64,000 nt of DNA. Source: Gemmatimonadota bacterium (GTDB lineage: Bacteria > Gemmatimonadota > Gemmatimonadetes > Gemmatimonadales > Gemmatimonadaceae). Below the pieces are notes generated by a model that was not told the DNA's origin, searched no databases, and was given only the letters and a program-made list of their open reading frames with translations. Within the stretch, counting starts at the first letter, position 1. Each line of letters starts with the position of its first letter. The DNA is taken from positions 304,823 to 368,822 of the forward strand of contig JAPLKS010000007.1 in NCBI GenBank assembly GCA_026387915.1, written 5' to 3'. The position numbers and the translations under genes are program-made. Shown in pieces: positions 13,949 through 20,239 of this stretch.

Positions 13949-14524
13949 ATGCTCGCACGATTCGCTCGCCACACCGGAATGGCCCTCGTCCTCTCCGCAA
14001 CCGTCGCGGGAGCACAAGCCGCACCGGCACAACCGGAGCCCGGCCCCAAAGTCGGTGACATGGCGCCTGATTTCACGCTCAGTGGCGCGACCAGTGCCGG
14101 CGTGCTCGCCAGCCCCGTGTCGCTCTCGAAGTTTAAGGGGCAGACGGTGATTATCGCCTTCTTCCCCAAGGCGCGCACCACGGGCTGCACCGCGCAAATG
14201 ACCACCTACCGCGATCAGTGGGCCACGCTGTTCAACGGCGGCAAGAGCGTCACGGTGATCGCCATCAGCATGGACGCCGACACGACGCAGGCCAACTGGG
14301 CCAAGGAAGCCAACCTGCCCATGACCTTCGCCAGCGATCCCAAAGGCGATGCCGGCAGATCCTACGGCGCATATCCCTGGCGCGAAGGGATGGAGAACCG
14401 GTTGCTGTACGTGGTGGCACCTGACGGGCGCATTGCCTACACGGCCAAACCATTCAAGCCACTGTCTGCCGACGCCTACACCGAACTCGGCGCGGCCGTC
14501 AAGAAAAGTGCGGGGATCAAGTGA
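13949..14524 (+). CDS. Exported peroxiredoxin (Bcp/AhpC-TSA family), cysteine form
   Basis: The 191-residue protein has a signal peptide (LVLSATVAGAQA) and a thioredoxin-fold peroxidase domain. KVGDMAPDFTLSGAT opens the fold, and the peroxidatic loop is FFPKARTTGCTAQM with Cys80 in the PxxxTxxC arrangement of Bcp-like peroxiredoxins. No second cysteine is present, so it is a one-Cys enzyme reducing peroxides outside the cytoplasm with an external reductant. It is the first gene of a tandem pair. Its TGA stop overlaps the GTG start of the next gene (GTGA at 14521-14524), and the two proteins are clear paralogues over their whole length. Confidence 0.93.
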   Translation: MLARFARHTGMALVLSATVAGAQAAPAQPEPGPKVGDMAPDFTLSGATSAGVLASPVSLSKFKGQTVIIAFFPKARTTGCTAQMTTYRDQWATLFNGGKSVTVIAISMDADTTQANWAKEANLPMTFASDPKGDAGRSYGAYPWREGMENRLLYVVAPDGRIAYTAKPFKPLSADAYTELGAAVKKSAGIK

Positions 14525-15093
14525 TCACCACCAAGCTCGCCGCGCTAAGCATCGCCGGCCTCGTCGCGATGGCACTGTTCGTGTCGCGCGCCGACGCGCA
14601 GGAGGCGCCGAAGGTCGGCGAACTCGCGCCGGACTTCTCGCTGCAAGGCGCCACCAAAGCTGGCGTCACCGCCAAACAACTCCGCCTCTCCGATTTTCGC
14701 GGACAGGTCGTCGTCCTGGCCTTCTTTCCCAAGGCGCGGACCAAGGGCTGAACGGTTCAAATGGAGGCGTACCGTGATCAGTACGCCACACTGTTCCACA
14801 ACGGCAAAGGGGTGGCCGTCATCGGCATTAGCACCGATGCGGACACCGTGCTCGCCAACTGGGCGCGCGAAAAGAACTTTCCGGTGTACTTCGCGAGCGA
14901 CGACAAAGTCGAGGTCGGCAAGCTCTATGATGCCAAGATTCCCCTCGTCAACTACGAACGCCGCAAACTGTTCGTGATTGGCCCCGACGGGCGAGTCGCG
15001 CACATTATGGATCCGTTCCGGGAGATTTCCCCGGCGGCCTACACAGAGCTCGCCGAGGCCGTGAACAAGGCGCTTCCGCCGGGTACCAAGTGA
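14521..15093 (+). CDS. Exported peroxiredoxin with in-frame TGA at the peroxidatic position: predicted selenoprotein
   Basis: Reading from GTG 14521 gives a signal peptide (SIAGLVAMALFVSRADA), KVGELAPDFSLQGAT, then FFPKARTKG, a TGA codon at 14749-14751 (codon 77), and TVQMEAYRDQYATLF onward to a TGA at 15093. The TGA replaces exactly the TGC of the upstream paralogue (FFPKARTTG-C-TAQM). The 114 codons after it stay open and match the paralogue to its C-terminus. The intact length would be 190 residues. No cysteine exists elsewhere, so the enzyme would depend wholly on this residue. The simplest reading is selenocysteine (UGA recoding), supported by a hairpin at 14766-14787. A TGC-to-TGA nonsense mutation or a sequencing error is the alternative. 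Confidence 0.8.
14766..14787 (+). promoter_or_regulatory. Candidate bacterial SECIS hairpin
   Basis: A perfect 7-bp stem, GGCGTAC (14766-14772) with GTACGCC (14781-14787), closes an 8-nt loop CGTGATCA. Exactly 21 nt separate the TGA from the loop, and G is the second loop base. This fits the known bacterial SECIS pattern (stem-loop just 3' of UGA, apical loop 16-37 nt away, G in the first two loop bases). The homologous region of the cysteine paralogue encodes a similar peptide (YRDQ) but has no such stem. SelB binding is inferred. Confidence 0.65.
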
Positions 15094-15099
15094 CAGCCT

Positions 15100-15140
15100 A
15101 ATGGGGCGCGCTATCTTTATAGCATGACTCGCGCCCCATT
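15100..15140 (+). repeat. 11-bp inverted repeat bracketing the aguB start codon
   Basis: AATGGGGCGCG (15100-15110) is perfectly complementary to CGCGCCCCATT (15130-15140), and inside it CTAT-CTTT-ATAG (15111-15122) can also pair. The aguB ATG (15124-15126) then lies in a 7-nt bulge. No clear Shine-Dalgarno sequence is seen before this start. It could modulate aguB translation or attenuate read-through from the peroxiredoxin genes. Confidence 0.5.
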
Positions 15141-16035
15141 TACTGTTGCACTCATTCAGGACGCCGTGACTGGCGATCCCACGCAGACGCTCGCCTCCAC
15201 CATTGTCCGCATCCGCGAAGCCGCGGCCAATGGCGCGCAAATCATCTGCCTGAAAGAGCTGTTCAACGCACCGTACTTCTGCAAAACACTCAAGCAGGAG
15301 TACTTCGACCTCGCCGAGCCCATTCCGGGGCAAACCATTGAGTTCCTGCGCGCACTCGCCGCAGAACTCGAAGTGGTGCTCGTGGTGCCGATGTACGAAA
15401 AACAGGCGCCGGGGGTGTATCGCAACTCCGCCGCCGTCATCGACGCCGACGGCACGCTCCTCGGCGTCTACCGCAAAATGCACATCCCGCACGACCCGAT
15501 GTTCGAGGAGAAGTACTACTTCGCACCGGGCGATGCGACCTCCGATGGCCCCGACAGCGCCGCGGGCTTCAAGGTGTGGAAGACGCGATACGCCACCATC
15601 GGGGTGCTCATCTGCTGGGACCAGTGGTACCCAGAAGCCGCACGCATCACTGCATTGCTCGGCGCCGACGTGCTTTTGTATCCCACGGCCATCGGCTGGC
15701 ATCCCGCCGAAAAGGCCGAGTGGGGCGCCGCACAGGTGGACGCCTGGCGCACGGCACAGCGCGCGCACGCGATTGCCAACGGTGTGTTTGTGGCCGCCAC
15801 CAACCGGGTCGGCTTTGAACCCGAACCCGGCACCGACGGACTCGAGTTCTTTGGCCATTCGTTTGTGTGCGATCCGTACGGTCGCGTCGTCGCGGAGGCC
15901 GATACCGCACCGGCCATCGTGATGGCCAAGTGCGATCCCGCGCTCATCGAGTACACGCGCCGCAACTGGCCCTTCCTCCGCGACCGGCGCATCGACGCAT
16001 ACGGTCCCATCCTCAAGCGCTGGCTCGGCGCGTGA
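15124..16035 (+). CDS. aguB: N-carbamoylputrescine amidase
   Basis: The 303-residue protein is a nitrilase-superfamily amidase with the Glu-Lys-Cys triad in place: the glutamate in CLKELFNAPYF, the lysine in YRKMHIPHDP and the cysteine in LICWDQWYPEAAR. HIPHDPMFEEKYYFAPGD and the C-terminal GHSFVCDPYGR are characteristic of AguB. It hydrolyses N-carbamoylputrescine to putrescine, CO2 and ammonia in the cytoplasm. Its stop overlaps the GTG start of aguA (GTGA at 16032-16035), so the two steps of the agmatine route are translationally coupled. Confidence 0.95.
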   Translation: MTRAPFTVALIQDAVTGDPTQTLASTIVRIREAAANGAQIICLKELFNAPYFCKTLKQEYFDLAEPIPGQTIEFLRALAAELEVVLVVPMYEKQAPGVYRNSAAVIDADGTLLGVYRKMHIPHDPMFEEKYYFAPGDATSDGPDSAAGFKVWKTRYATIGVLICWDQWYPEAARITALLGADVLLYPTAIGWHPAEKAEWGAAQVDAWRTAQRAHAIANGVFVAATNRVGFEPEPGTDGLEFFGHSFVCDPYGRVVAEADTAPAIVMAKCDPALIEYTRRNWPFLRDRRIDAYGPILKRWLGA

Positions 16036-17084
16036 GCACCGGAACGGTGCGCTGGCCAGCCGAGTGGGAGCGGCACGACGCGACGTGGATTGCGTGGCCG
16101 CACCACGAGCCCGACTGGCCGGGGAAGTTCGCGCCCATCCCGTGGGTCTACGCCGAAATCGTGCGCGCACTCGCAGCGCACGAACGTGTGGAGATTGTGT
16201 GTCACGACCCCACCGTACTCAAGGACGCGACGCACTGCCTCGCCGCACACGGCGTAGACACCTCCCGCGTGCGGTTGCACCGCGCCCGCACCGACCGCGT
16301 GTGGATGCGCGACTCCGCCCCCACCGTGGTCTTTGACGGTCCCACCCCTACCCTCGTCAACTGGGGCTTCAACGCCTGGGCCAAGTACGACAACTACGCC
16401 GACGATGCCCGCATGGGTCAGGTGATGGCCGAAGCCACGGGCCTTGTACGCCACGAGCCCATGCGCCCCGACGGCGGCGGCCGTGTGATGCTCGAAGGCG
16501 GTGGCATCGAAACCGATGGACGCGGCACTATCCTCGTCACCGAGGAATGGCTCCTTACCGACGAACAGGTGCGCAACCCGGGACTTGGCCGCGCCGACTA
16601 CGAGGCCATCTTCGCGCGCGAACTCGGCTGCTCCAAAACCCTCTGGCTCGGCGAAGGCTGTGTTGGTGATGACACGCACGGACACGTGGACGACATCGCA
16701 CGCTTTGTTGCGCCTGGCGTGGTGGTGCTCGCATACGAGAGCGACCCCACCGACGACAATCACCGCCGCTCCGCCGACAATCTCCACCGCCTCGCCTCCG
16801 CCACGGATGCCACCGGCGCCCCGATTCGCACGGTGACGTTGCCATATCCGCGCGCCGTGATGATGGACGGCCAACGCCTACCGGCGAGCTACGCGAATTT
16901 TTACATCGCCAACGGCTCCGTCATTGTCCCCACGTTCAACGACCCCAACGATCGTGTGGCACTCCACACGCTCGCCGAGCTTTTTCCGGGACGCGAAATC
17001 GTCGGCATTCACGCGGTCGATCTCGTCTGGGGGCTCGGCACCCTGCACTGCCTGTCGCAGCAACAACCCGCCGCACCCCGCTGA
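16032..17084 (+). CDS. aguA: Agmatine deiminase
   Basis: The 350-residue product belongs to the peptidyl-arginine/agmatine deiminase (PPADPF) fold. It starts at GTG 16032 with RWPAEWERHDATWIAWPHH and carries VWMRDSAPTVVF, the metal-free substrate loop LEGGGIETDGRGTIL and GDDTHGHVDDIARF. The C-terminal catalytic cysteine is in GTLHCLSQQQPA. It converts agmatine to N-carbamoylputrescine, the substrate of the preceding aguB product, giving a putrescine pathway that bypasses ornithine decarboxylase. No arginine decarboxylase gene is in the window. Confidence 0.95.
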   Translation: MSTGTVRWPAEWERHDATWIAWPHHEPDWPGKFAPIPWVYAEIVRALAAHERVEIVCHDPTVLKDATHCLAAHGVDTSRVRLHRARTDRVWMRDSAPTVVFDGPTPTLVNWGFNAWAKYDNYADDARMGQVMAEATGLVRHEPMRPDGGGRVMLEGGGIETDGRGTILVTEEWLLTDEQVRNPGLGRADYEAIFARELGCSKTLWLGEGCVGDDTHGHVDDIARFVAPGVVVLAYESDPTDDNHRRSADNLHRLASATDATGAPIRTVTLPYPRAVMMDGQRLPASYANFYIANGSVIVPTFNDPNDRVALHTLAELFPGREIVGIHAVDLVWGLGTLHCLSQQQPAAPR

Positions 17085-18917: not shown

Positions 18918-19607
18918 ATGGGCAAACCCGCAGTGCTGCTTCTCAGCGGCGGCCTCGACTCCACCACGCTCCTCGCATTGGCCACGCGCGATGGCTGGTC
19001 GGTAAATGCGCTCACCTTTCGCTACGGCCAACGGCACGGCGTCGAAATCGAACGCGCGCGCGCCCTCGCCGAGCACTATCACGTGGCTCGGCACGTGATC
19101 GCGGATATTGACCTGCGACAGTTCGGCGGCTCCGCACTGACCGCGGACATTGCCGTCCCCAAGGATCGCGATGCCTCCGCGATGGGCGAGGGCATTCCGG
19201 TGACGTACGTGCCGGCCCGCAACACCATCTTCATGTCGTTCGCGCTCGCCTGGGCCGAAACGCTCAACGCGCAAGACATTTTCATTGGCGTGAATGCGCT
19301 CGACTACAGCGGCTACCCCGACTGCCGCCCCGAGTACATCCACGCGTTCGAATCAATGGCCAACCTCGCCACGCGCGCCGGCGTCGAAGGCACGGCGCGA
19401 CTCCACATTCGCACGCCGCTCATTGACCTCACCAAGCGCGAAATCATTGCTCTCGGTCTCTCGCTCGGCGTGGACTACGGCATGACCACCAGTTGTTACG
19501 ACCCCGCGCCCAACGGAGCGGCGTGCGGCCACTGTGATGCCTGCCAGCTCCGGCGACGAGGCTTCGAGCAGGCCGGCGTGGCGGACCCCACGCCATACGC
19601 GCCGTGA
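18918..19607 (+). CDS. queC: 7-cyano-7-deazaguanine synthase
   Basis: The 229-residue enzyme converts 7-carboxy-7-deazaguanine to preQ0 with ATP and ammonia. The PP-loop [13 protein letters not shown] is at residues 10-22, [14 protein letters not shown] and [17 protein letters not shown] follow, and the C-terminal zinc site is [14 protein letters not shown] preceded by SCYDP. It is the first of three consecutive preQ0 genes, and its stop overlaps the GTG start of queE by four bases. Confidence 0.97.
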
Positions 19608-20239
19608 CCTACACCGTAAAGGAGTGCTTCTACACCCTGCAGGGTGAAGGAGCACACACCGGACGCCCCGCGGTGTTTCTCCGTTTTTCGGGATGCAATC
19701 TGTGGACGGGGCGCGAGGAAGATCGCGCGAGCGCCGTCTGCAAATTCTGCGATACCGACTTTGTTGGCGTCGGACCAGACGGCGGTAAGTTCGCGTCCGC
19801 TGCGGAACTCGCCGCGTTGGTGGCAAGCCGCTGGCCGGCGAGTGACGGCGGCGCCCACCGCTACGTGGTGTGCACCGGCGGCGAGCCCTTGCTGCAACTC
19901 GACGCGCCTCTCTTGGACGCCCTGCACGCGCGCGGCTTTGCGGTGGCGGTCGAAACCAACGGCACCCAACCTGCGCCGAGCGGCATCGACTGGATTTGCG
20001 TGAGCCCCAAAATCGGCGCGCCGTTCGTCCTCACGCGCGGTGACGAGCTGAAACTCGTCTTCCCGCAGGAAGGAGGCGACCCGGTACCCTTTGAACAGCT
20101 GGCCTTCACCCATTTCTTCCTGCAGCCCATGGACGGGCCGAACGGCGCCGCCAACACGGCGAGCGCCGTCGCCTACTGCCTCGCGCACCCGCGCTGGCGG
20201 CTCTCGGCGCAAACTCACAAGCAGATTGGAGTGCGGTAA
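19604..20239 (+). CDS. queE: 7-carboxy-7-deazaguanine synthase (radical SAM)
   Basis: The 211-residue protein begins [21 protein letters not shown], given here as [17 protein letters not shown], the usual QueE opening. Its cluster-binding motif is a widened CX14CX2C: C in FSGCNLW, then VCKFCDTDF. This longer spacing is known from one QueE subgroup and is not a defect. [12 protein letters not shown] is the SAM-contacting GGE segment. It rearranges 6-carboxytetrahydropterin to 7-carboxy-7-deazaguanine. GTG 19604 overlaps the queC stop and TAATG overlaps the queD start. Confidence 0.96.

Follow-up and report, generated by a model that had tools for sequence, protein, structure and literature searches.

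A predicted exported selenocysteine peroxiredoxin in Gemmatimonadota, with TGA at the peroxidatic position

A tandem pair of peroxiredoxin genes

We analysed a 64,000-nucleotide stretch of DNA from a Gemmatimonadota bacterium (the window), in which a peroxiredoxin gene is followed by a related frame that contains an in-frame TGA. The features of the locus, and of one gene on another contig of the same genome (G000), are listed below with the evidence for each.

13949..14524, + strand: upstream tandem Cys paralogue, a peroxiredoxin with a predicted signal peptide (ORF list, Pfam, signal-peptide heuristic)
14186-14188, + strand: Cys codon TGC of the upstream paralogue (aligned with TGA 14749-14751)
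14521..14524, + strand: GTGA overlap of four bases between the paralogue stop and the start of the TGA gene (sequence)
14521..15093, + strand: predicted selenocysteine peroxiredoxin of 190 residues, likely exported, starting with GTG and containing a single in-frame TGA (translation, Pfam, homologues, AlphaFold2)
14521..14598, + strand: signal peptide predicted for residues 1-26, with cleavage following ADA (sequence, simple heuristic)
14749..14751, + strand: TGA as codon 77, occupying the peroxidatic position (TKGU) and predicted to encode Sec (alignment with paralogue Cys, homologues, model)
14761..15093, + strand: 110-aa ORF from an internal ATG, which ordinary gene finding gives in place of the full protein (ORF list)
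14766..14787, + strand: SECIS-like hairpin, 7-bp stem of 14766-14772 with 14781-14787 (RNAalifold, covariation, codon freezing)
14773-14780, + strand: hairpin loop, 8 nt, CGUGAUCA (RNAalifold)
G000:C22:299281-299733: gene of a thioredoxin-like protein of G000

Translation of 14521-15093 gave a single in-frame TGA at codon 77, followed by the terminal TGA at 15091-15093. An earlier note on this DNA had placed the in-frame TGA at the position of the peroxidatic Cys of the paralogue, and the alignment of TGA 14749-14751 with TGC 14186-14188 confirmed this. The two proteins were 56% identical over 158 residues. The TGA protein contained no Cys residue, as the note had also stated. The frame after the TGA was indeed open to 15091-15093, with 113 sense codons and not the 114 given there. 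Because the two genes overlap by the four bases GTGA, their translation is likely coupled. With the upstream Cys copy the locus yields a second peroxiredoxin, likely exported too.

Both proteins matched the Pfam family AhpC-TSA (PF00578) over its cut-off of 26 bits, the TGA protein with 97.3 bits over residues 32-161 and the paralogue with 91.5 bits. An AlphaFold2 model of the TGA protein, built from a 77-row alignment, had a mean pLDDT of 90.8; in it, residue 77 lies within the first turn of a helix formed by residues 75-86. The predicted active site is that of a peroxiredoxin, with Sec where this helix begins. The best PDB matches of the model were BCP, AhpC, and peroxiredoxin structures. 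Among curated NCBIfam models, BCP/PrxQ (NF006960) matched best, yet its 67 bits were below the cut-off of 140. The PrxU equivalog (NF040737), whose cut-off is 270 bits, was rejected because the score was 53 bits. For Prx-SUH (NF045827; cut-off 298 bits), the Cys paralogue scored 14.8 bits, and the TGA protein was not among the matches.

Signal peptides had been proposed for both peroxiredoxins, and a simple home-made heuristic supported this. By the same heuristic, 129 of the 134 distinct TGA copies described below passed, including the window copy, while 4 failed and 1 was not scorable.

Homologues, locus arrangements and the active-site proline

Homologues were drawn from 30 loci found in 119 relatives, from the best 80 of 93 named loci, and from 78 homologue stretches; two additional G000 stretches proved not to be homologous and stand outside the 78. 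Together these gave 188 loci and 211 BLAST hits, none of which was dropped, and 178 distinct sequences. The aligned codon was TGA in 134 of the distinct homologues and Cys in 44, and nothing else occurred there, which settled the earlier question of whether close homologues carry Cys or TGA. Another Cys within the matched part was present in 8 of the 134 TGA copies. All of the best 80 of the 93 named loci were assigned to Gemmatimonadota or lower taxa, except that L122 and L125 were named 'uncultured bacterium' only.

The arrangement of the genes varied. Over the 188 loci, a count that includes duplicates and in which the loci of the sources overlap, we found a lone TGA gene at 141, a lone Cys gene at 24, Cys then TGA at 16, Cys-Cys at 5, TGA-Cys at 1, and TGA-TGA at 1. 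The tandem Cys/TGA pair is therefore one arrangement of several. The natural pair pointed out in the earlier note holds at the window, but within the window's genus it is found only in part. A tandem pair with TGA at the catalytic codon of both copies was seen in L152 (G008), around 1219 and 1822. The genome G065, first taken as a TGA case by its stop count, was rejected because its aligned position is Cys.

On a quick tree with both the Sec/Cys and the proline columns masked, the residue changed between Sec and Cys at least 8 times. L035, L037, L074, and L082 are Cys-Cys tandem pairs in which one copy groups with the Sec copies, and these tree positions point to Sec-to-Cys switches. As for the genomes with Cys-Cys pairs, G012 keeps tRNA-Sec and SelA, and G006 keeps SelA and gave no tRNA-Sec match.

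We then compared the active-site motif. The window copy keeps PxxxTxxU (PKARTKGU). The Pro of PxxxT/SxxC was kept in all 44 Cys copies and in only 42 of the 134 TGA copies; in the remaining 92 it was replaced by F (42), Y (41), I (4), V (3), or S (2). Among the 120 database homologues listed, of 1042 found, 116 had the motif Pro and the other 4 had no readable motif. On the same masked tree, Pro and non-Pro states interchanged at least 8 times. The Cys row L167, with Pro, grouped with four Pro-less Sec rows (support 94, long branch), and the Cys row L169, also with Pro, grouped with four Sec rows, three of them without Pro and one with it (support 87). An independent-pairs test of Sec against Pro loss was small and underpowered, with only 4 pairs (starred branches) and a median p of 0.5; over 200 pairings, the mean number of pairs was 1.8 with Pro loss on the Sec side, 0 against, and 2.2 with no difference. 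For this reason the claim about Pro rests on the counts and the tree. The motif PxxxTxxU is called highly conserved and crucial in PMC13188914. The Gemmatimonadota TGA branch departs from that description in that Pro is mostly absent. Loss of Pro in the Sec-peroxiredoxins of an exported Gemmatimonadota branch was not found in the literature searched.

The gene neighbourhood was examined at those named loci, 73 in all, whose downstream sequence exceeded 1.7 kb. Thioredoxin-like (WCxxC) or CcdA/DsbD neighbours were present at 24 of them, and none were shown at the other 49. A thioredoxin-like WCxxC ORF was found at 17, a DsbD_TM/CcdA ORF at 13, and both at 6, lying downstream of the peroxiredoxin gene on the opposite strand. 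Clustering had given 26 loci, of which L070 and L099 were excluded because the clustered ORFs had no CxxC; the ORF filtering may lose or mis-cluster neighbours. Two thioredoxin-like examples and one CcdA example were confirmed by Pfam. The N-terminus of the thioredoxin-like protein of L079 resembles a signal peptide by eye. In the window, the genes that follow the TGA gene are of another kind; in G000 the thioredoxin-like and CcdA genes adjoin each other on another contig (G000:C22:298511-299733), with 68% and 57% identity.

These data bear on whether the protein could be a selenoprotein other than a peroxidase, that is, an exported Sec enzyme of thiol-disulfide or other redox chemistry built on the peroxiredoxin fold. 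The absence of Pro in most TGA relatives would fit such an enzyme, and thioredoxin/CcdA neighbours serve disulfide chemistry too. However, the window copy keeps the complete motif, all 178 distinct homologues retain the motif Thr/Ser, and the motif is complete in the Cys copies. The window protein has no Cys and therefore no UxxC pair. We consider a non-peroxidase function unlikely.

A SECIS-like hairpin and the selenocysteine machinery

A bacterial SECIS is expected directly behind the UGA. RNAalifold, applied unaided to the 63 bases from the TGA, found one 7-bp hairpin with an 8-base loop. Over 126 distinct rows, 98.4% of the cells were paired compared to 91.7% in shuffles, and the covariation score was 0.127 compared to 0.025; none of 500 shuffles was as high in either pairing or covariation. 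One of five covariation measures, that for further pair types, was not above the shuffles (294/500). The outer stem pair was GC in 73 rows, CG in 27, UA in 11, AU in 1, and unpaired in 14. Of the remaining pairs, two varied in one or two rows, and four of the seven stem pairs were invariant. On the 3' side, the outer pair involves the free third base of an Ala codon. On the 5' side it involves the third base of a codon for which the encoded amino acid varies as well. The hairpin alone was more stable than shuffles (z -3.37), and the single 63-nt segment of the window was no more stable than its shuffles (z -0.81).

The synonymous positions under the hairpin were nearly frozen. The codons GCG, TAC, CGT, GAT, CAG, and TAC were each present in 129 to 134 of the 134 TGA copies. 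CGT occurred in 129 of the 134 TGA copies compared to 6 of the 44 Cys copies, which mostly used CGC (34/44) and GAC (33/44) at hairpin codons. The mean relative synonymous entropy was 0.16 at 7 conserved codons (+3 to +11) and 0.89 at 19 others (p 1e-4). All seven pairs were kept in 86 of 100 distinct TGA stretches compared to 2 of 44 Cys copies. No Rfam SECIS family matched the hairpin region up to E 5. A hairpin-model search of G000 matched the TGA gene with 82.5 bits, the Cys paralogue with 42.4 bits, and a chance-level site with 15.4 bits (E 5.7), and found no second gene with the same SECIS. The covariation and codon freezing 3' of the TGA, where a SECIS had been sought, suggest that 14766-14787 is a SECIS element.

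A pattern of TGA plus hairpin with at most 2 mismatches was found in 246 of 395 genomes of the phylum and in 86 of 138 genera; this count includes some TGC copies, and at least 2 genomes (G137 and G273) match only through them. These TGC copies match most of the hairpin pattern with two mismatches and are possible recent Sec-to-Cys switches. The pattern was found in no genome of the families coded f6 (15 genomes), f8 (3), f10 (1), and f11 (6). Judged by this pattern, the gene is widespread in Gemmatimonadota and not universal.

The earlier note had named selA, selB, selC (tRNA-Sec), and selD as genes to look for, and all were present in G000, a genome of 3.58 Mb in 23 contigs with completeness 100. 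Its tRNA-Sec (83 bits, anticodon TCA by ARAGORN) adjoins selD, and SelA (532 bits), SelB (336 bits, two pieces of one frame), and SelD (380 bits) were found; all scores were over the cut-offs. Among 119 relatives, G000 included, where the tRNA-Sec search used stricter filters, 79 of the 80 genomes carrying the TGA gene had tRNA-Sec or SelA, compared to 15 of the 39 without it; the homologues share ancestry, so the Fisher p overstates the significance. In the 80 TGA genomes, 67 had both tRNA-Sec and SelA, 7 lacked a tRNA-Sec match, and 7 lacked a SelA match; neither was found in G066, which is 86% complete. When only the 100 better genomes were considered (at least 90% complete, at most 5% contaminated), the numbers were 71 of 71 and 11 of 29. 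G038 and G063, each a single contig, carry Cys copies, and neither gave a tRNA-Sec or SelA match.

Could the UGA be read through with another residue, such as Trp or Cys by suppression? Cys is the sole alternative residue at the position, which would suit such a reading. However, tRNA-Sec or SelA accompanies the TGA gene in all but one of its genomes, and the hairpin lies directly behind the UGA at the place expected of a bacterial SECIS. In addition, both genes of the pair end in TGA, so UGA is also a stop in G000. Read-through other than as Sec is very improbable.

A working product of 110 residues from the internal ATG (14761) was rejected on conservation and selection and is barely credible. 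The database searched contains such a 110-aa protein (P0002), which is 98% identical, and the ATG is kept in 130 of the 134 TGA copies. However, this fragment would have neither the active-site loop nor the signal peptide, the ATG is replaced by CAT in three distinct rows and by GTG in one, and codons -25 to -1, counted from the TGA, are under purifying selection in nine congeners (pN/pS 0.23).

A true stop, in a fresh pseudogene or through an assembly error for TGC, was likewise rejected and has next to no probability: although TGC becomes TGA by one base and an intact Cys paralogue lies next door, the TGA is common to most distinct homologues and recurs with the hairpin across genera by the pattern (some matches being TGC), pN/pS after the TGA is 0.33 in the nine congeners, and in a second genome (G007; L025 and L054) a protein 98% identical carries the same TGA in an intact copy, free of the decay for which sister copies were to be checked. 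Since the G007 copy and 134 of 178 distinct homologues share the TGA, it is not a product of chance or sequencing error.

A stop at the codon of the reactive Cys, together with a conserved hairpin, recurs in many Gemmatimonadota genomes and is therefore very probably read as selenocysteine. The suggestion in the earlier note that 14521-15093 is a likely selenoprotein is strongly supported by the conservation of the TGA, the hairpin, and the Sec machinery.

Predicted function and relation to known peroxiredoxins

Taken together, the comparisons make it very probable that 14521-15093 encodes an AhpC/TSA peroxiredoxin whose TGA is read as Sec via SelB, tRNA-Sec, and the hairpin, and which is likely exported and would act as a one-Sec peroxidase. 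SelB and tRNA-Sec would read TGA 14749-14751 as Sec, aided by the hairpin just behind it. The selenol (Sec-SeH) would attack peroxide outside the cytoplasm and become Sec-SeOH. As the TGA protein has no resolving Cys, an outside thiol would have to reduce the Sec-SeOH. The best candidate donor is a thioredoxin-like protein with WCxxC, itself likely exported, which would receive electrons by way of a CcdA/DsbD-type membrane protein, so that reducing power may pass from CcdA to the thioredoxin-like protein and on to the Sec-peroxiredoxin. Gene neighbourhood in other genomes suggests this donor link.

Sec-peroxiredoxins with TxxU are an established class (PMC13188914, PMC9312934, PMC5029168, PMC1088965). 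The first member was PrxU of Eubacterium acidaminophilum, in COG1225/PF00578 (cited in PMC13188914 and PMC9312934). Like this class, the TGA protein has the AhpC/TSA fold, the TxxU motif, and UGA at the peroxidatic position. Unlike PrxU, the Gemmatimonadota branch is likely exported, widespread in the phylum, mostly without the Pro, and sometimes paired with a tandem Cys copy. BCP/PrxQ structures (PDB 3hjp, 3drn, and 2ywn) were among those matched by sequence and by fold, but the TGA protein differs from BCP/PrxQ in its predicted signal peptide and in having no resolving Cys. A Sargasso Sea set of 43 peroxiredoxin selenoprotein sequences with TxxU, a bioinformatic prediction, belongs to the same motif class by its description; a term search of that source gave no mention of a signal peptide (PMC1088965). 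The thiol peroxidase Prx-SUH (NF045827) is another Sec peroxidase of related fold, but with the motif CxxU in place of TxxU (PMC13188914).

We found no report of an exported Gemmatimonadota Sec-peroxiredoxin branch, nor of thioredoxin-like or CcdA/DsbD neighbours of a Sec-peroxiredoxin, in the literature searched, a scope outside which most subscription papers and bioRxiv preprints fall. None of the main texts of PMC13188914, PMC5029168, PMC9312934, and PMC12013277 contains the string 'Gemmatimon'. PMC8318568 mentions Gemmatimonadetes as a reconstructed genome, and its text does not use the word 'peroxiredoxin'. Thus the TxxU class is known, and within this literature the exported branch, the Pro loss, and the thioredoxin-like/CcdA neighbours appear to be new.

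In a joint reading, to which we give about even chances, the exported Sec-peroxiredoxins form a widespread Gemmatimonadota branch in which selenium relieved the need for the active-site Pro, electrons come from an exported thioredoxin/CcdA chain, and Pro was retained or restored in the copies that changed to Cys. Since the motif Pro is lost only in Sec copies, its role in peroxiredoxin catalysis becomes directly testable. The tandem Cys/Sec copies and the repeated switches between Sec and Cys provide a natural test of what selenium gains for a non-cytoplasmic peroxidase.

Gemmatimonadota are common in soils and in fresh water. The present analysis adds to this phylum a large set of likely selenoproteins, in 246 of 395 genomes by the pattern, some of whose matches are TGC. 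Ordinary gene finding cuts the TGA gene short, and the protein database searched holds the fragment P0002, which is without the active site.

G000 may contain a second selenoprotein. A formate dehydrogenase alpha homologue at G000:C9:57633-59501 has one in-frame TGA and scored 622.5 bits, below the cut-off of 666. Six TGA genomes with the Sec machinery (G010, G013, G021, G030, G081, and G118), two of them less than 90% complete, gave no formate dehydrogenase match at E 1e-50; thus the peroxiredoxin may be their main reason to keep Sec.

Directly downstream of the TGA gene, the window at 15124-17084 encodes a carbon-nitrogen hydrolase (Pfam) and then another ORF, which we take to resemble agmatine deiminase. 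The neighbouring ORFs at 18918-20239 presumably resemble QueC and QueE of queuosine synthesis.
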